Positions 955 to 14,442 of a stretch of 20,948 nt of DNA are shown here, piece by piece (position 1 is the stretch's first letter; each line of letters opens with the position of its first letter). A model generated the notes under the pieces. The model saw only the letters and a list, made by a program, of their open reading frames with translations, made no database searches and had not been told where the DNA came from. The position numbers and the translations under genes were made by a program. The stretch comes from Deltaproteobacteria bacterium (GTDB lineage: Bacteria > Myxococcota > UBA796 > SXON01), in contig CANKNP010000043.1 in assembly GCA_947483545.1 (NCBI GenBank), positions 1-20,948 of the forward strand, written 5' to 3'.

Positions 955-3900
955 ATGCTGCTCCTCGTCCTCGCCGCCCATGCCGTGCTCCCCCTTCCTA
1001 CCCACCCCGAATGCGGGGAGCCCGACCGCGGCGATTTGTGTCCCGCCGACTTGAACGAGCGTTGGACCTACCTGTCGTACATCCCCGTCGCATGGCAGGA
1101 GAGCGTCCGGTCCGAGGAGACTGCGACCGGCGCGAGCATCGACCGCGCCTGGAGAACGACGACCGGGCGGACGGACGTGGTGATCTCCGTGATGGACAGC
1201 GGGATCGACTGGGGGGCGGATGGCATCGTTCGGAAAACCGCGTTGAACATCGCGGAGCTGCCGATGCCGAGCGGGTACGACGTCTACGACGCAGACGGGA
1301 ACGGGGTCGTCAACGTGAGCGACTACGTGGGCACGGTTGATCCGGAGGCGGGGGTGGCGGCTGCGGACGACATCCTCGATCCCTCGGATCTCATCGCCAC
1401 GTATTCCGACGGTACGGACGCCGACGGGAACGGTTTCGTGGACGATATCGCCGGTTGGGACTTTCTTTGGAACGACAACGACCCCTACGATGACACGGAC
1501 TTCGGCCATGGCACCGGCGAGGCCGAGTGGTCGTCCGAAGAGGGCGGGGACGGCGGCGAGATCGGGGCGTGCCCCAACTGCATGGTGATGCATCTGCGGG
1601 TGGGCGACACCTTCGTCGCAGACGCCGCTGCGTTTGCCTCAGCGGTGCTGTACGCGACCGACAACGGGGTGGACATTGTGCAGGTCGCCATCGGAGCGAT
1701 CACGCGCCCCGCGTATGCCCAGGTGGCGATTGACTACGCCTGGGAGCACGATGTGCTGGTGGTATCGAGCGCCGGCGACGAGACGGCGTGGCACTCCAAC
1801 CCGCCCGCCAACCAAGCGAGGGCGGTCTACGTGCATGGGATCACCTACGCGGGAGACTCCGAGGCAGAGGCCAGCTCGTTCCTGGCCTATGAAAACTGCA
1901 CCAATCATGGCCCACGCCTCGATTTTTCGGTTTCGAGCGACGATTGCTCGTCCTACGCCACTGGTCTCACCGCGGGCGTGGCCGGCCTGGTCCTCTCGGC
2001 GGCCCGCGACGCCGGGCTCACGCTCACGCCTGCCGAGCTCACACAGCTGCTTGTTCGCCAAGTCGAGGACATCGACCTCTCCGCCGACCCCGATCCGCGG
2101 TGGTATCCCTCGCAGCCGGGGTGGGACCGGTACTTCGGAGAGGGGCGCTTGAACGCCGAGGCATCGGTCGAGGCCGCTCGCTACGCCCGCATCCCACCCT
2201 CCGTCGAGATCACGACCCCCACGTGGCTCGCCTACCTCGACCCGGTCGCGACGCCCACCGTGACGGTCGGGGGGAGCGTGGCAGCGCCGCGCGGCTCTCT
2301 CTTGAGCTGGACTCTGGAAGTGGGCCCGGGCCTTGAGCCGGACGTTTGGGAGACCCTGGGATCGGGATCGGCAGCCACGGAGGCGCTCGCGGATTGGACG
2401 CTCCCCCAACAGGACTGTGCGCTGGAGGACTACGCCGTCGGCACCACGACGGTGGAGCGGGAAGAGGCGATGAACGCCTGCACGTGGACCCTGCGGCTCT
2501 CCGCCCTCGATGCCGCGGGAGCCGAGGCCGTTGTGCGGCGCACGGTTTATGTTCAACACGACCCCGATGCCTTGCCTGGGTTTCCGCAGCGGCTCGGAGA
2601 CGGCAGCTCGCTGGAGGCGTCGCCGCTGCTCGTCGATGTCGATGCGGACGGCGTGCTCGACGTGATCCAGGCGAGCGGCGGTGGTTGGGTGACAGCGCTG
2701 CATGGCGATGGCTCCTTGATCTGGAGCGCACATGTCGAGACGTTGGAGGAGATCGACGATGCGCTGCCGGGGTCGCACTCTGGGGCGCCGGCCTACGCGG
2801 AGGTCGGGCTCGCGATGTACGCGCCGATCGCCGCTACGCCGGCCGCGGGCGACCTCGACGGAGACGGGCAGATGGAGATCGTGGTCGCGACGATGCGCGG
2901 AGCGGTCCACGTGTTCGGGGCCGATGGCGCGACGCGGATGGGGTTCCCCGTCCTGCTCGACCCGATCCTCTCGACCGATCCGGCCTACCAGATCGACGAC
3001 GGCATCCTCGGCGCTCCCGTGCTGTCCGACCTCGACGGGGACGGGCGACTCGACATCATCGCCGCGGGCTTCGACGGCAAGGTGTACGCTTGGACGCCCG
3101 ACGGTGCGCTCCTTCCGGGGTGGCCCATCGTCCCGCGCTGGGACGCCGGGATCGAGGGCCGTGAACACATCGTGTCCTCCCCGGCCGTGGGTGATCTCGA
3201 CGGCGACGGGCTCCCCGAGGTCGTATTCGGCACCAACGAAGCGATTGACGACGAACACGCCCCCCTCTTTGCCTACCACGGGGACGGCACGCCGCTCGAC
3301 GGCTGGCCGGTGCGGATGTGGGGCTACTCCACAGACGTGCTGCCCGTCGTGGGGGAGGGGATGCCCGAGTCGGCTGCGATTGGCGACCTGGACGGGGACG
3401 GCGTCCCGGAGATCATCGCCCACTCGATCGGCGGCGCGGTGTCGGTGTTCGCCCCCGATGGCAGCACGATCATCGAGACCAACACCAGCCGTTCGACCTA
3501 CGGAGCACAGTCGAACGTGGGCGACAACGCCGTCCTCCCGCTCATCAACTCGCCCTCCGTCGGAGACGTGGACGGGGACGGCGTGCTGGACGTCGTGACC
3601 GGCGCGACGGGCATCGGGTACATGCTCGGGGGCGTGACCCGCGGCGAGCGGACGGACTTCGACCAGATGGTCGCGGCGTGGAGCGGGGTGGACGGCTCGT
3701 TTCTCGCTGGATGGCCCCGCCTGGTCGATGACCTTCCGTTCTTTTTGAACCCGGCCATCGGCGACATCGACGGTGACCGCGCGATGGAGGTCATCGCCGG
3801 AACAGGGGGTGGAACGGCGCACGCGTGGAACGCGGACGGCGAGGAGCCCTCCGGGTGGCCGAAGCTCGTCGGCGGCTGGGTGATCGCGTCTCCGGCCATT

Positions 3901-4364: not shown

Positions 4365-6181
4365 GCCCCCCGCTCCTCCCCCCCCGCCCGCCCCAACAAC
4401 CAAACGCTCGCCGCCCCCGCAATTCCCAACGCCCCAAGGCTCACCCACCCCGCCGTCTCGTCCGCTGCGGGGCTCCGGGTGACCGCCCAGGCGTTGTGCA
4501 GCATGTGCGCGACCATCCCCGGGAGAACGGACCGGCACCGCCATGCGATCCAGCCGAACAACAGCCCGATGACGAACACCGGGGCCAACTTCACCGCGGA
4601 TCCGTGGACCAGCGCGAACAAGACCGCTTGCACCACGATAGCCACCGCAGGCTTCGACCCGCGCAGGAGCAGTCCCTGGACCGCCCCGCGGAACAACAGC
4701 TCCTCGGGGATGCCCGCGCACAGCGTCAGAACCCAGAAAGGAAGCGCCACGCTCGCGAAGGCCTCCAGCTCCGCTGGGCTCAGGAACAAGGTTGGCGGGA
4801 GCAGGATCAGCGCGAGATCTGCGACCGTCGCGGAGGCTGCCACCAAACCCGGGATGAGCACCCAGACGCGAGGCGGCGGTAGGTAGAGGCCCAGCGCACG
4901 CTGAACGGGCAGCCCGAGGACCACCGGCATCATCAGCGCCGGCAGCGCGAACGCGCCGATCTGCACCGCGGCGAAGCCCCAGGCGCCGTCCGGACTGAGA
5001 GCACTGAGCAAGAAGAGCATGGCTGGCAACGCGGCGATCCCCAACAAGATGGCTTCGGCGCGGTAATCTCCCGCCGCGTGCCGGCGGAGGCTCCCACCAG
5101 ACTCTGGGTCTACGGCCATCCCGGTTGCGTACTGGCGGGTGACGTAGTGGGTGCAGGCGGCGATCACCGCCACCGCGCCCAAAACGGCGGCGACGGTTGG
5201 GCCCAAACGGAGCGGCTCGGACTCGAAAAAGAGCGAAATCAAGCCTCCGATGGGCACGAAAGCGCCGACCGGCCAGCCTGCGGCGTCCAGCGCCCGGGAG
5301 ATCCCGGCGAGCAGGGGCAGCCCAAGCATCGGGACCGCGATCCGCACGTTTGCGTCCGTCGCCCCCGCAGCGTTGGCGATGCTCGCGATGCTCGTCGCGG
5401 CCAGCAGGAGCACGGCCAGGGGCAGGAGCAGAAGATGCACGTCAAAGGGGGAGGATTGGGCGACTCCTGCGGCCACCGCCACGCCCGAGCCCAGCAGCGT
5501 GGGGAGCACGGTCAGGAGCCCCGCCGCGGTGGTCACGAAGAGCAGCGAAAGCGTCAGATCCCGGCGCCGAACACCCGTAGCGAGGATGGCCTCCAAGGTT
5601 CCGGAGAGCTTCATGGCCGGCAGCGCGGCCACAACCATGCCCGTACACGCGAACACCATCGAGAAGTACAAGGCGACCCGTGAGGTCGAGAGCCCCCCCC
5701 AGTCCGTGGGATCCGCGGTGGTGACCGTCACGGTCTCGCCGGGCCGCGCGTCGAACCCTGCGGCGGTCAGCCTTGCCGCGCGGGCCTCGCGGATCCGCTC
5801 CTTGACGCACTTGCGGACCTTGTCCACCTCGGTGTTGTCGTCGCCGGTCAGGTCGATCCGCGTGGCCTCGACGCATGGGCTGCTCAGAGTGTCGATGCAG
5901 GCCCCGGGAACGGTGACCACGATGCGGACAACGCCGTTGGGGTCGAGGGGATCGGGCCAGGTGAACGCGCCGTCCCCCTCGATCATCGTCGTGGGCAGGT
6001 CTTCGCAGGCGGGCGGATCGGGGGGGTTCAAGCCCTCGACGAACGCCGTGAACCACTCCGACCGCGGCTGGGCCCCGAAGTAGCCGAAAACCGCGGCGAG
6101 CACGAGCGTCAGGACGACCGCGCCTGGCTTGCGGAGCACGGGCGCGCCGATCAGCCGCGACAACGCCCAGAGCACCCTCAT
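4361..6181 (-). CDS. ABC-2 type permease fused to a CPBP intramembrane protease
   Basis: Predicted 606-residue polytopic membrane protein joining two modules. The N-terminal half (about 1-385) is an ABC-2/NatB-like permease: one helix near 18-36, a large extracytoplasmic loop at about 37-165 with Cys59, Cys95, Cys103 and Cys125, then a membrane domain. The C-terminal half (about 390-590) is a CPBP (CAAX/Abi, glutamic-type) protease-like domain with all three signature motifs: EELLFR at 493-498 (EExxxR), FALVH at 522-526 (FxxxH) and HMLHN at 559-563 (HxxxN). The fusion of ABC permease and CPBP domain is a known architecture in Planctomycetes and related bacteria. The ATG overlaps the TGA of the upstream permease (ATGA), so the two are probably translated together and pair in one exporter. 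Whether the CPBP part cleaves exported substrate or serves another role cannot be read from the sequence. Confidence 0.88.
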   Translation of the reverse strand: MRVLWALSRLIGAPVLRKPGAVVLTLVLAAVFGYFGAQPRSEWFTAFVEGLNPPDPPACEDLPTTMIEGDGAFTWPDPLDPNGVVRIVVTVPGACIDTLSSPCVEATRIDLTGDDNTEVDKVRKCVKERIREARAARLTAAGFDARPGETVTVTTADPTDWGGLSTSRVALYFSMVFACTGMVVAALPAMKLSGTLEAILATGVRRRDLTLSLLFVTTAAGLLTVLPTLLGSGVAVAAGVAQSSPFDVHLLLLPLAVLLLAATSIASIANAAGATDANVRIAVPMLGLPLLAGISRALDAAGWPVGAFVPIGGLISLFFESEPLRLGPTVAAVLGAVAVIAACTHYVTRQYATGMAVDPESGGSLRRHAAGDYRAEAILLGIAALPAMLFLLSALSPDGAWGFAAVQIGAFALPALMMPVVLGLPVQRALGLYLPPPRVWVLIPGLVAASATVADLALILLPPTLFLSPAELEAFASVALPFWVLTLCAGIPEELLFRGAVQGLLLRGSKPAVAIVVQAVLFALVHGSAVKLAPVFVIGLLFGWIAWRCRSVLPGMVAHMLHNAWAVTRSPAADETAGWVSLGALGIAGAASVWLLGRAGGEERGA

Positions 6182-7167
6182 CGGGCCGCGCCCCGGGCTC
6201 GCACGCAGAGGGCGACAATCGCCGCGGTGGCCCCGACCGTGCTGGCGACCCCCGCGAGCCAGCCCAGCACACCCTCAGCGACGAAGATCCCGCCGAGCGG
6301 GATCCAGGCCTGGCCCATCGCGATGCCCAGTCCCAACAGCGCCATCTGAACCATCAGCACCGAACCCGCCGACTGCATCGCCAGCACCGGCGTGGGCGCG
6401 ACCTCGCCGGTCCAGAGCAGCGATGCCGTCATCAACGCCTGGGCGAGCACCACCCGCAGGATGTCGCTGGGGTGGGGCTCCAGCAGCGTCGTCCCTCCGA
6501 TGAGCGCGACGACGGCCGCGAAGAACAGCGCCGCGCCGCCGAACGCGACCACCGTCGCGGCGACCACCCGCGCCAGCACGGGCTCCCAGCGCCGAAGTCG
6601 AAGCACGGCGAGCGTCTCGTACAGCCCCGACGCCCGGTCCGCAGCGGCCAAGGGCACCAGGGCATAGAGCAGCGCCCAGATCGGCGCGAAGGCCAGGTAG
6701 GCGGCGACCGACCCCTTCGGCAGGTCCAAGCCCTCCTTTGGCACCTCTGGCCGCGCGCTCAACTTCGGGAGGCGGACGGACGGTCCACGAGGCCCGACCG
6801 CGAGGCCGAGCGCGTGATCCCCGGCATCCTGAAGGGCCTCTTCCACACGTTCACCCCCCGCGCCCGCGACCTGGGCTTCCCAGCGCCCTCCTGGCGCCGC
6901 GACCACGCCGAAGATCGCACCGTCCACCCGCCCAGCGTCCAGCTCGGCCTGGGGGGTGGCGGAGGTCAGGACGGTGAGATCCTGCGCGCGCAGCTTTTCC
7001 TCCAGCGGGAACTGCTCCGGGAGATCTTTCGGAATCGCGATGGTCTTGGCCGGCGTCGGCTTGAGCAGAACCAGCATCCCGACGACCGTGAGGGGCACGA
7101 CGACCATCGGCACGAACCCAAGCGCGGCCACCACCCAGGGCGACCGAACCAGCCGACGCAGCTCCAT
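6178..7167 (-). CDS. ABC-2 type transporter permease (NatB-like)
   Basis: Predicted 329-residue permease with one N-terminal helix (about 12-34), an extracytoplasmic loop (about 35-155) and a cluster of further helices to the C-terminus, the layout of ABC-2/NatB-type permeases. MELRRLVRSPW at the start is the typical cytoplasmic lead-in. The ATG at 7167 was preferred. A longer form could begin with TTG at 7230, but those extra codons come from a dispersed repeat element. There is no clear Shine-Dalgarno sequence. The gene follows the ATPase gene after a gap filled by that repeat, and it overlaps the CPBP-fusion gene by 4 nt. With those neighbours it should form a heterodimeric exporter of unknown substrate; Na+, peptide, lipid or antibiotic are the usual options. 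Confidence 0.85.
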   Translation of the reverse strand: MELRRLVRSPWVVAALGFVPMVVVPLTVVGMLVLLKPTPAKTIAIPKDLPEQFPLEEKLRAQDLTVLTSATPQAELDAGRVDGAIFGVVAAPGGRWEAQVAGAGGERVEEALQDAGDHALGLAVGPRGPSVRLPKLSARPEVPKEGLDLPKGSVAAYLAFAPIWALLYALVPLAAADRASGLYETLAVLRLRRWEPVLARVVAATVVAFGGAALFFAAVVALIGGTTLLEPHPSDILRVVLAQALMTASLLWTGEVAPTPVLAMQSAGSVLMVQMALLGLGIAMGQAWIPLGGIFVAEGVLGWLAGVASTVGATAAIVALCVRARGAAR

Positions 7168-7190
7168 CCCGGTGAGCGCGGCGAAGGGCC

Positions 7191-7383
7191 GGAGCCAGCT
7201 TCGAGCGCCGGACGAAGTCCGAGCGGTCAAAGCTGGCTCCGGCGTTTGCGTCCGGGGCGGGACTGGCGCGAAGCGCCGGACCCGACCGGCCGGACGCGAA
7301 CACCAGCCCGCGAATGCGGGCGTTCTTCGAGAACACTGGCCGATGCGCCCGGGCCGCGCCCTCGCGGGCCGGGAGAATCGGCG
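7191..7383 (+). repeat. 193-bp four-hairpin repeat element, copy A (intergenic)
   Basis: This folded element occupies almost the whole gap between the ABC ATPase stop and the permease start. In order it contains: hairpin I (7191-7240, outer stem GGAGCCAGCTT/AAGCTGGCTCC, inner stem closed by a GAA loop); hairpin II (about 7243-7302, arms GTTTGCGTCCGG/CCGGACGCGAAC, with an inner GGCGC-GAA-GCGCC); hairpin III (GCCCGC-GAAT-GCGGGC, about 7306-7321); and hairpin IV (about 7340-7381, CCGAT...ATCGG). An inverted copy lies at 8775-8968. The last ~155 bases of the two are about 80% alike by eye, and hairpin I is the same 50 nt in both with compensating base changes. There is no transposase gene, so it resembles a MITE/REP-like or structured-RNA repeat. 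Confidence 0.85.
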
Positions 7384-7390
7384 TTTCCGA

Positions 7391-8158
7391 TCACGCCGTC
7401 GCCTGCTTCACCAGCGCGACGAACGCCCGCCGCAGGTCCGCACACCCCGTTCGGGCGCGCAGCCCGTCGGCGGTGTCCACCGCGTGGATCCGCCCGGCAT
7501 GCATGATCGCGATGCGGTCGCAGATCTCCTCGGCGATGCCCATGTCGTGCGTCGAGAAGAGCACGGCGGCGCCTTCGTCCCGGGCCTTGCGGATGGCGGT
7601 GAGCAGCTCCTCGGCGGCCATGACGTCCAGGCCAGAGGTGGGCTCGTCGAGGATCCAGGCGGGGGGCTGGTGAACCGTGGCGCAGGCGAGCCGGAGGCGT
7701 TGGCGGAGACCCGTCGAGAGGGCGTCCACCGAGCGATCGGCGAACGCTTCGAGGCTGAAACGGGCGAGCGCGGCCATCGGCGCGGCGGAATCGTCCACGC
7801 CCTGGAGAGCGGCGAAGGTCTCGATGGTCTCGCGGGTGGTGAGCAGCGTGGGCAACCCCGACGTGACGCTGACGTACCCGATGGATCGGCGGGCGCCGTC
7901 GGGAGAGGTGAGCACATCGTGGCCAGCGATTCGGGCCGTGCCGGAGGTGGGGGGGGTCAAGGTAGCCAGCATGCGGATCGTCGTGGTCTTGCCCGCACCG
8001 TTGGGGCCCAGCAGGCCGAACACCTCGCCCGGCTCCACGGTGAACGAGATGCTGTCCACCGCGATCACGGGATCCCCCTTGGCGACCGGCCAGACCCGGC
8101 GGAGTTGGTCAACGTCGATGACGGGCAAGGGCAGCCTCGTTCGGGATCTAACGCTCAC
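7391..8158 (-). CDS. ABC transporter ATP-binding protein (NatA-like)
   Basis: Predicted 255-residue ATPase that drives the exporter formed with the two permeases encoded downstream. Visible motifs are Walker A GPNGAGKTT at 51-59, the signature LSTGLRQRL at 147-155 (Thr in place of the common second Gly of LSGGQ), Walker B WILDEP at 168-173, the D-loop SGLD and the switch His204 (STHD). The usual Gln of the Q-loop is not evident (GYVSVTSGLP at 94-103). The sequence resembles the NatA/DRA subfamily. The start shown is GTG at 8158, 17 nt from the divergent ATG. A TTG at 8128 with GAGG just upstream is a reasonable alternative and would leave more room for promoters. The stop codon lies 7 nt from repeat copy A, which might affect expression of the permease genes. 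Confidence 0.9.
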   Translation of the reverse strand: MSVRSRTRLPLPVIDVDQLRRVWPVAKGDPVIAVDSISFTVEPGEVFGLLGPNGAGKTTTIRMLATLTPPTSGTARIAGHDVLTSPDGARRSIGYVSVTSGLPTLLTTRETIETFAALQGVDDSAAPMAALARFSLEAFADRSVDALSTGLRQRLRLACATVHQPPAWILDEPTSGLDVMAAEELLTAIRKARDEGAAVLFSTHDMGIAEEICDRIAIMHAGRIHAVDTADGLRARTGCADLRRAFVALVKQATA

Positions 8159-8175
8159 CGCGATAGGTGCGCGCG

Positions 8176-9876
8176 ATGGCCGACAAGCACCGCTGGATCG
8201 AGCCCGTCGCGGTGCTGGGCGTGATCGGGTGGGTCCTCGCCGAGGCCATTGCGCTCCCCGTACGCGACGTGCCGATCGGCACCGACTGGCAGCGTTATCT
8301 CGAGAACGCGGTCGCCATCCAGACCGGCGAATGGGCCGACTACCAGCGTTGGCGGGGGCCTTTTCATGCGCTCCTGTGCCTGCTGGTCACGCCCCTCGCT
8401 GGCCACCTGTTGGAGGCGAGCCAGGCGGTGAGCGTCATGTCGGTCGGTGCGCTGATCGCGACGTCGGCGGCGCTCGGAAGGCGGATGATGGGGCTGGGCG
8501 GCGGCGTGTGTACGGCGCTCCTGCTCGCGGGATGGCCGGATCTTGCCCTACAAGCGCGGATGTCCACCCCCTACCCACTGTTGGCCGGCTTGATCTGCGG
8601 GGGACTATGGGCCTTGGACCTCGGGCTTCGCGCGACCGACGGTCGGGTTCGCCCCGGTCCGTCGCTCCTCGCCGCCGTGCTCTTCGGCCTCGCCGGCGCG
8701 ACCGACGCCCGTGGCCTGGTGTTCGCCGGCGCCGCGCTCCTGGCGGTCGCCGGGGCCCGTGGGCAGGCCCTGTTCGCCGATTCCCCCGGCGCGCGAGGGC
8801 GCGCGCCTGGAGAATCGGCCAGTGTTGGCCAAGAACGCCCGCATCCGCGGGCTTGTGTTCGCGCCCTTTCGGTCGGGTCCGGCGCTACCGCGCCGTTCCC
8901 GCCCGGGACGCGAACACGGGAGCCAGCTTTGAAGGCGCGCACTTCGTGCCGCCTTCAATTCTGGCTCCGGGGTGGCCCGAGGTTCGGCCTCGCGCTCGTT
9001 GGGATCCTCGGGGTCGCGGCGTTGACCCGCGGCCTCATCGTCGGCCAGCTCCCCGTCGAGATCTTCCCGCTCGCCGACCAGATCGCCCTCCAGCGGGACC
9101 TTCACGCCCGCGAGGGTGGCCTCCGCGTCTGCACCGACCACCGCGGCGCCCCTGTCGCCGTGTCGGAGCTCTGGAGCGCGTGCGGGCGCACCACGGCGAT
9201 GCAGAACCTCCAACGGGTGGTCCAGGTCGCGCCGTTTCCGATCTGGCTGGTCGCCCCCTTCGCTCTCTTGGGCGTTCGCAGGCGCACCTTTGCCCTCACC
9301 ATCCTCCCGCTCACGCTCCTTCCCGCGGCGTTCCTCGTCGGCCTGGAGCACCGGTATGTGCTCCCGCTGGCCGGACCCGTGGTGGTTTTGATTCTCGCGG
9401 GCGTGAGCCGTGTCGCGGAGCTACCCAGGATCGTCGAGCGTTCCCGCGGCTTCGCCCGACCCGTCCTTCTCGCGTTCACCCTGGCCGGCTTCGCCACCGC
9501 CTGGCGTACGGGCACGGAGACGTTGAGCCTCCGCGCGCGTTCGGGCCCGCCGACGAATGGCCGCCGCGCGCCGGTCACCCAGCTCGATCCTCGCAACCCC
9601 GTGGCCACCACCCGCGGCTGGCTTCGCGCCAACGCCGCTCCCGACGCCCGGATCCTCGACTGCGCCGGGCTCTCGCTCCACCTGCGGCTCTACCCCCGCG
9701 CCGTAGATGAGGGCTCCCGCAACGGTCGGTCCAGCAGCCGGTGCCAGAAGCTCATAGGGGCGGCCGCTGAGCCAAAAACGCTGGTCCTAAGCAGGGAGTC
9801 AGTGAATCCCTCTTGGGTCAAGGTCGGCGAGGCCGCGATGCCGATGTCCCCGCTCCAGGTCTTTCGGGCAGAGTGA
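8176..9876 (+). CDS. GT39/ArnT-like polytopic membrane protein with an in-frame repeat insertion
   Basis: Predicted 566-residue membrane protein with roughly ten hydrophobic segments. The region around 36-64 (DW...Y...NA...GEW...WRGP.H) resembles the first extracytoplasmic loop of lipid-linked-sugar transferases (GT39/ArnT/PMT superfamily). Residues from about 470 form a non-membrane C-terminal domain. Such proteins move a sugar from a polyprenyl-phosphate donor to a lipid or protein on the periplasmic face. Residues about 200-265 do not belong to the fold: they are the translation of repeat copy B (8775-8968), rich in Arg, Pro and Ser, sitting between two hydrophobic segments. The frame stays open through it. 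The ATG at 8176 was chosen; a GTG at 8167 is also possible. The gene is divergent from the ABC ATPase. The exact transferase activity and acceptor are not determined. Confidence 0.72.
   Translation: MADKHRWIEPVAVLGVIGWVLAEAIALPVRDVPIGTDWQRYLENAVAIQTGEWADYQRWRGPFHALLCLLVTPLAGHLLEASQAVSVMSVGALIATSAALGRRMMGLGGGVCTALLLAGWPDLALQARMSTPYPLLAGLICGGLWALDLGLRATDGRVRPGPSLLAAVLFGLAGATDARGLVFAGAALLAVAGARGQALFADSPGARGRAPGESASVGQERPHPRACVRALSVGSGATAPFPPGTRTREPALKARTSCRLQFWLRGGPRFGLALVGILGVAALTRGLIVGQLPVEIFPLADQIALQRDLHAREGGLRVCTDHRGAPVAVSELWSACGRTTAMQNLQRVVQVAPFPIWLVAPFALLGVRRRTFALTILPLTLLPAAFLVGLEHRYVLPLAGPVVVLILAGVSRVAELPRIVERSRGFARPVLLAFTLAGFATAWRTGTETLSLRARSGPPTNGRRAPVTQLDPRNPVATTRGWLRANAAPDARILDCAGLSLHLRLYPRAVDEGSRNGRSSSRCQKLIGAAAEPKTLVLSRESVNPSWVKVGEAAMPMSPLQVFRAE
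8775..8968 (-). repeat. 194-bp four-hairpin repeat element, copy B (inside a coding region)
   Basis: Inverted copy of the element at 7191-7383. Read on the minus strand it gives the same four hairpins. Hairpin I has arms GGAGCCAG/CTGGCTCC, then TTGAAGGCG/CGCCTTCAA and a GCAC-GAA-GTGC tip. Hairpin II has arms GTGTTCGCG/CGCGAACAC with GGCGC-GGTA-GCGCC inside. Hairpin III is GCCCGC-GGAT-GCGGGC. Hairpin IV has arms CCGATTC/GAATCGG with GGCGCGC/GCGCGCC inside. Compared with copy A, paired positions change together: C-G versus G-C in hairpin I (two pairs) and in hairpin IV (one pair). The copy keeps the reading frame of the GT39-like gene. Its boundaries are set by similarity to copy A; I could not identify a target duplication. 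Confidence 0.85.
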
Positions 9877-9909: not shown

Positions 9910-10070
9910 TCGCGCGGGGTGTTGAGTGGCACCGTCCCCCACCCCCAAGGTGTCGTTCCGCCCCGCGCTTTCTTTCCTGGTCCCGCCGGCACGCCGGTAG
10001 TGGACCTACGAGCGCACCGTTGAGACGGGGGGCTTGCCCCCCACGAAGCAGAGCGCGATAGCCGGCGGCG
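9910..10070 (+). other. Long leader region before the DUF1304 gene
   Basis: This is non-coding on both strands as far as I can see. It contains CCGG-CACG-CCGG and GTAG...CTAC small inverted repeats near 9990-10010 and the strong G/C hairpin at 10027-10042. If the promoter at 9878-9909 is used, this is an untranslated leader of about 150 nt. I recognise no riboswitch. Confidence 0.3.
10027..10042 (+). repeat. G-run/C-run hairpin E1
   Basis: GGGGGGC-TT-GCCCCCC is followed by ACG. It is one of three similar hairpins in the window, all with CCCCCCACG on the 3' side (others at 14424 and 16361). No T-tract follows, so it is not a classical intrinsic terminator. It lies 28 nt before the DUF1304 start codon and could limit translation or transcription there. 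Confidence 0.55.
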
Positions 10071-14403: not shown

Positions 14404-14423
14404 TTTCGTCCCGCCCTGCTTTG

Positions 14424-14442
14424 TGGGGGGCGGGGCCCCCCA
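14424..14442 (+). repeat. G-run/C-run hairpin E2
   Basis: TGGGGGGC-GGG-GCCCCCCA forms an 8-bp stem. Its 3' side begins the 18-mer GGCCCCCCACGCCCCCCG (14434-14451), which recurs exactly at 16371-16388. It lies next to the three-branched element. No T-run follows. Confidence 0.6.

Follow-up and report, generated by a model that had tools for sequence, protein, structure and literature searches.

A four-hairpin repeat of about 192 nt, probably mobile, found within unrelated genes and mostly in frame

What is a GC-rich repeat of four hairpins, present twice in opposite orientations within a short stretch of DNA, and how does it persist where it stands? The window in which this question arises is a stretch of 20,948 nucleotides from a Deltaproteobacteria bacterium of the phylum Myxococcota. 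An earlier note on this DNA had described the two copies as related, and a BLASTN comparison of copy 2 (8775–8968) with the window confirms this, returning positions 7383–7191 at 82.0% identity over 194 positions with an E-value of 5.3e-51; the next-best matches are the element's own palindromic arms. In the alignments, copy 1 falls short of copy 2 by a single base, although the exact base is ambiguous (Table 1). That difference had been overlooked previously, as had the location of both copies within genes. Such DNA often contains GC-rich palindromes, and the source is probably a metagenome assembly; both could point to an assembly artefact or to chance likeness. This can scarcely be credited, since the identity of 82% extends over the full length, the copies nevertheless differ from each other, and five protein records on other contigs carry the same element (see below). 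No transposase domain was detected by Pfam in 17 ORFs picked from the 80 listed ORFs of at least 100 amino acids in the window, in agreement with the earlier remark that no transposase lies nearby.

Table 1. Coordinates of the features in the window, and location of the insert in individual proteins
Feature	Positions	Strand	Remarks
Copy 1 of the element	7191–7383	+	193 nt, structured strand +; 82% identity to copy 2; fold z −9.55
Copy 2 of the element	8775–8968	−	194 nt, structured strand −; fold z −10.50
One-base length difference, copy 1/copy 2	7269–7272	+	Alignments; exact base ambiguous
Hairpin I, copy 1	7191–7240	+	50 nt, GAA loop; computed fold
Hairpin II, copy 1	7244–7303	+	Computed fold
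Hairpin III, copy 1	7306–7321	+	Computed fold
Hairpin IV, copy 1	7339–7382	+	Computed fold
Hairpin I, copy 2	8919–8968	−	50 nt, GAA loop; computed fold
Hairpin II, copy 2	8854–8915	−	Computed fold
Hairpin III, copy 2	8837–8852	−	Computed fold
Hairpin IV, copy 2	8776–8819	−	Computed fold
ABC permease frame	6178–7230	−	Now opens at TTG inside copy 1
Possible restart point in copy 1	7227–7240	−	Sequence; function inferred
ABC transporter ATPase gene	7391–8158	−	Upstream of copy 1, same operon; ABC_tran domain; 75% identical homologue in L221
Membrane-protein gene bearing copy 2 in frame	8167–9876	+	569 aa from GTG; database form 566 aa; translation
P0003			Insert mid-protein
P0014			FG-GAP/ASPIC; insert near annotated N-terminus
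P0015			No Pfam domain; insert near annotated N-terminus
P0016			Bacterial sugar transferase; insert mid-protein
P0017			No Pfam domain; insert just before lipoprotein-like stretch
P0018			Fatty-acid hydroxylase; insert mid-protein

Each copy, when folded alone, gives the same four hairpins, and hairpin I is of equal length in the two, with an identical GAA loop, all as first described. The paired changes reported between the copies are also present: in hairpin I, C-G is replaced by G-C at 16/35 and G-C by C-G at 21/29, and in hairpin IV, C-G is replaced by G-C at alignment columns 165/178 (15/28 of that hairpin). The MFE is −139.5 kcal/mol for copy 1 and −131.1 kcal/mol for copy 2 (on its gene strand), to be compared with a mean of −82.5 and a best value of −113.0 kcal/mol for the 206 stretches clear of the copies in a scan of 214 stretches of 194 nt along the window. 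On the structured strands, the MFE z-scores of copies 1 and 2 are −9.55 and −10.50, with none of 200 shuffles equally good. When the fold of copy 1 is applied to copy 2, 10 of 75 pairs are broken against 20.7 expected from placing the same substitutions at random positions; in the reverse direction, 8 of 71 are broken against 18.2, and in neither direction did any of 20,000 simulations give as few. Double changes within pairs number three against 1.0 expected (P 0.07, either direction), so the inference that the fold has been kept stands on the retention of pairs, and the flips that were first offered for it are no proof by themselves. We conclude that the four-hairpin fold is conserved between the window copies. 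The 34 differences counted between them are distributed over the three codon positions as 11, 13 and 10; because this spread is even, no constraint on the peptide is apparent, and it looks from the sequences as though the structure, rather than the peptide, is under constraint. In the five copies known at the protein level (see below), eight double changes are forced in four different pairs, and seven of these, in three pairs, are able to pair. The share of pairs made impossible by the peptides is 0.063, compared with 0.008–0.117 in slid controls, and since it is not lower than in the controls, these five copies add little on the fold.

Such a fold invites the view that the repeat is a structured regulatory RNA, self-expressed or acting on the messages of its hosts, and the strength of the fold on both tested strands of copy 1 (z −9.55 and −7.37) would suit it, as would the retention of pairs. 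We nevertheless regard this as improbable. Rfam 15 gave no match at the gathering score in the window, a search restricted to the sigma-70 pattern gave no promoter-like site in 7100–9100, and the element lies inside unrelated protein genes, where it is read opposite to its best-folding strand.

Copy 2 forms a stop-free, in-frame insert within a membrane-protein frame, as established by translation. A search for this protein yielded 12 proteins, one of them the window's own, and the insert is absent from all eight of the homologues that were aligned, among which the same loop also varies. In the AlphaFold model of the window protein (mean pLDDT 72.9, nine sequences), the insert is made up of blocks with pLDDT values of 40–60 (residues 201–260) between confident helices. 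A modelled insert of such low confidence fits tolerance by the host protein, not function.

Further copies were found by searching with the element peptide alone against 5.8 billion proteins, in two length ranges that together covered about 105–996 aa. The first search returned P0014, P0015, P0016 and P0017 together with the window's own protein, and the second, in the lower length range, added P0018; there were no partial element matches in either. These five additional proteins match at 74–86% identity over 90–100% of the query, with E-values from 1.9e-18 to 4.4e-25. Their records are listed for ncbi and ena and lie on other contigs; our guess is that their species is the same as that of the window. 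In all six proteins, the window's included, the insert amounts to 64 residues between the flanking residues, stop-free and in frame. Seven copies are thus known here, and the main addition to the earlier note is that the element has apparently entered genes repeatedly, six of these copies being in frame. The frame rule follows in part from the peptide search, which detects that frame only; the two window copies, found independently of it, are free of this bias and agree in orientation and phase with respect to their genes.

Comparison with homologues provides a measure of the insertion. A match to P0016 was found in 36 of 61 genomes, and in all eight loci fetched the alignment is gapless at the join once the 64 residues are omitted, which gives a net insertion of 192 nt, a length measured for this one host, the sugar transferase, only. 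Four of eight fetched relatives of P0014 (L223, L225, L226 and L227) have readable leaders without such an insert, the remainder standing outside the count because they aligned spuriously at the leader (L224 and L229) or were not conclusive (L228 and L230). A homologue of P0018, L198, is without most of the stretch and is too diverged for the ends to be placed. The presence of copies in unrelated genes, with homologues that have no insert, argues that the element is mobile, and its small size and want of a gene of its own argue that it is non-autonomous. We therefore favour, with a probability of roughly 0.7, a dispersed non-autonomous mobile element that lives inside genes in the manner of the Rickettsia palindromic elements (RPEs) and mostly preserves the reading frame. 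The proposal of a MITE/REP-like mobile element made at the outset survives in the broad sense of mobility, given the five further copies and the insert-free homologues; the REP assignment does not, for want of an end tag, and there are no inverted terminal repeats (ITRs).

The seventh copy is instructive. Copy 1 is located between an ABC ATPase and its permease, at the start of the permease gene. In the related operon of L221, the one close homologue (ATPase 75% and permease 40% identical), the ATPase gene is beside that of the permease, and stop and start overlap as TGATG with no sequence between them. In the window, a GTG at 7394–7392 overlaps the ATPase stop, and we infer that it was the ancestral permease start. 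Three of nine joins tried in copy 1 restore the permease frame from this GTG: one omits 191 nt (GTG followed by IGNRPFAALTGMELRR) and two omit 194 nt, with one residue fewer. We would prefer the 191-nt omission, because copy 1 is one base shorter and the insertion elsewhere was measured as 192. In the present sequence, reading from GTG 7394 enters copy 1 in the phase of copy 2 and stops at TGA 7229–7227, the stop-free frame of the element being broken through the one-base loss. The permease frame is opened by TTG 7230–7228, which this TGA overlaps, and GGAG at 7240–7237 lies six bases upstream; ribosomes may restart at this TTG inside copy 1. A GGAG–six bases–TTG start was also considered as a general function of the element and was set aside as the main explanation, being relevant in the window to copy 1 only.

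An element that is excised from the message, or skipped by ribosomes, would leave the host proteins unaltered. The out-of-frame position of copy 1 in an operon that is open elsewhere and the colinearity of the permease start with its homologue once copy 1 is omitted would be in keeping with this, as would the exact insertion in the sugar-transferase host and the very strong fold. Removal of this kind would have no need of the stop-free, in-frame inserts found in six of six protein-level cases, however, and no known ribozyme family was matched; we hold it to be very improbable.

The ends of the element bear on how it might move. On the gene strand, it runs from CGCCGATTC to TGGCTCC, a length of 194 nt in copy 2; the end sequences CCGGAGCC and ATCGGCG are the same in both copies, and no inverted terminal repeats are present between the ends in the sequence of the two window copies. 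Were the element to add 192 nt net, as it does in P0016, two of the end letters would belong to the site. On that reading, the site is CC in both window copies (GG on the structured strand), preceded by T in copy 2 and by A in copy 1. In all five protein-level copies, this preceding base is T (V or L codons); the residues leave the first C of the site unfixed, and at the second position they require C in three copies (P) and allow C or T in the other two (L). From these alignments, any target duplication would be at most about 2 nt. A 2-nt duplication (TC, gene strand) could be present in copy 2, and the residues at the five protein-level copies allow it. It would suit a MITE of the DDE-transposase type, derived by deletion from an ordinary insertion sequence and leaving a very short target duplication, to which a short, non-autonomous and dispersed element would also conform. 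We consider such a MITE unlikely, because the two ends are not mutual inverted repeats and because the duplication is absent in copy 1.

Relatives of IS200/IS605 end in hairpins, lack inverted terminal repeats, duplicate their target little or not at all, and are moved as single strands by Y1 transposases. The element resembles the non-autonomous members of this group in having a hairpin near each end (I and IV) and in being free of ITRs, but no parent element came to light, nor any transposase with the same ends. Of 22 genomes in the nearest family, 12 contain Y1 transposase genes; none of three Y1 loci checked has this repeat, L219 having a different palindrome on both sides and L215 having 54-nt inverted arms. 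Returning to the mobile element that we favour, we propose that it is transferred as a folded strand of DNA, with mobilisation supplied in trans. The lack of ITRs, the lack of a clear target duplication and the hairpin at each end tentatively suggest a Y1 (HUH) tyrosine transposase encoded elsewhere as the most likely mobiliser, at about one chance in three. Once in a host gene, the element would be read through, because 192 nt correspond to 64 codons and the frame used is stop-free, and the protein would gain a probably unstructured loop of 64 residues. Selection would eliminate insertions that disrupt the frame or the protein, and in copy 1, following the one-base loss, the permease may be restarted from the TTG inside the element. 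Judging by the open frames, the cell probably makes host proteins with the extra 64-residue loop.

Searches for element DNA elsewhere were made in sets that overlap, with few candidates scored per genome and no positive control, so that their blanks are weak. By the neighbouring PNTB gene, 'uncultured proteobacterium Ki3-D2_bin-0965', a MAG, is the nearest genome (87% identity); no element DNA was found in it, again without a positive control. Among 22 genomes of the family, 13 gave short matches only (E-values of 1.4e-4 to 0.01) and no credible copy. No element DNA was found in any of 63 genomes of the order or 71 of the class, and the single match among 377 genomes of the phylum, L197, reads as an ordinary, tsaD-like coding sequence rather than a credible copy. 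With a covariance model derived from the window copies, 60 genomes gave no credible copy, also without a positive control; its sole match, L214, lies inside an ordinary open frame and was judged to be due to chance. Plasmids and phages gave no match to the element, and in L001, the sole viral contig to match the hairpin I pattern, the rest of the element is missing on reading. The 85 stretches that match a loose hairpin III pattern (16 fixed bases) were taken as chance; a stricter pattern, requiring an exact match and so missing copies with one change, found none in viral or genome contigs.

Comparison with described systems places the element closest to the RPEs, which are in-frame insertions in many genes (PMC10969869; PMC2229807). 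Like them, it is a short, non-autonomous palindromic element found in frame in unrelated protein genes (six of six full-insert proteins), whose frame has no stops and whose peptide is conserved (74–86% identity), a pattern from which copy 1 deviates by its one-base loss. RPEs as portrayed there are elements of 105–146 bp in Rickettsia with 12-bp inverted terminal repeats (PMC2229807), whereas the present element is GC-rich and has 193–194 nt and four separate hairpins in place of one long stem-loop with ITRs. There is, moreover, no Rickettsia among the 80 loci listed for PNTB, the best being the uncultured proteobacterium MAG. Intragenic REPs are likewise reported as palindromes within reading frames, also near N-termini, with clusters that may encode 43–82 residues (PMC3733652), a likeness that extends to the element. 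The REP unit is given as 20–40 bp (PMC3733652) with an end tag of GTAG/GTGG or CGTC (PMC3686654; PMC2817692; PMC3733652), while the element is a single block of about 192 nt with no such tag in either copy; GGAG at the foot of hairpin I was considered as a tag and dropped, the tags in these accounts being GTAG/GTGG and CGTC. The enterobacterial MITEs of the ERIC/RU type share with it an intragenic location and open reading frames joined in phase to host genes, in their case sometimes at signal peptides (PMC2229807). The inverted terminal repeats with TA ends and the target duplication described for ERIC/RU-1 in that source (PMC2229807) are not seen here.

In the literature cited here, the coding palindromic elements come mainly from Rickettsia, with short REPs reported from some other bacteria; among the papers listed by a search of open-licence literature, none showed a described case in Myxococcota. 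The filled and empty forms of the host proteins are directly comparable. That the differences are evenly spread over codon positions suggests selection on the hairpins and not on the peptide that they force into proteins, and a family of 64 codons and four hairpins in a further lineage, itself GC-rich, would show that mobile DNA has adopted life inside genes more than once.

Read on the gene strand, hairpin III of the second copy of the four-hairpin repeat, which lies in frame within a membrane-protein gene, scores as terminator-like, with 1 such site found against 0.7 expected by chance. A 32-nt inverted repeat pair in the window is built around a GGGGGGC...GCCCCCC hairpin core, and is possibly either a further small dispersed repeat or a terminator. 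At L219, a Y1 transposase locus of the nearest genome (G001), the two palindromic repeats are 90% identical to each other and have no sequence relation to the four-hairpin element of the window.

Coordinates of the features discussed
Feature	Location	Strand	Remarks
Terminator-like hairpin III, copy 2	8837-8852	+ (gene strand)	followed by TTGTGTTCGC
Protein, 1339 aa	238-4257	+	subtilase domain and FG-GAP repeats
Protein, 961 aa	10446-13331	-	cyclic-nucleotide-binding domain at C-terminal end
32-nt inverted repeat pair	10027-10058 and 14409-14440		arms 81% complementary
Palindromic repeats, 61 nt each	L219 (G001) 1393-1453 and 2393-2453		either side of Y1 transposase gene

The FG-GAP repeats of the subtilase protein are visible at the DNA level too, as direct repeats, and the PADLOC matches of the 961-aa protein (PycTIR and others) are confined to its cyclic-nucleotide-binding domain.

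In P0017, a protein without a Pfam domain that carries the 64-residue insert of the element, residues ~28-120 of the annotated N-terminal part are repetitive, comprising two FPFSL(W/R)EK...YSAPDEGSP stretches together with AAHPPVR-like repeats. This casts doubt on the annotated start of the protein, and a further small repeat may be present upstream of it.
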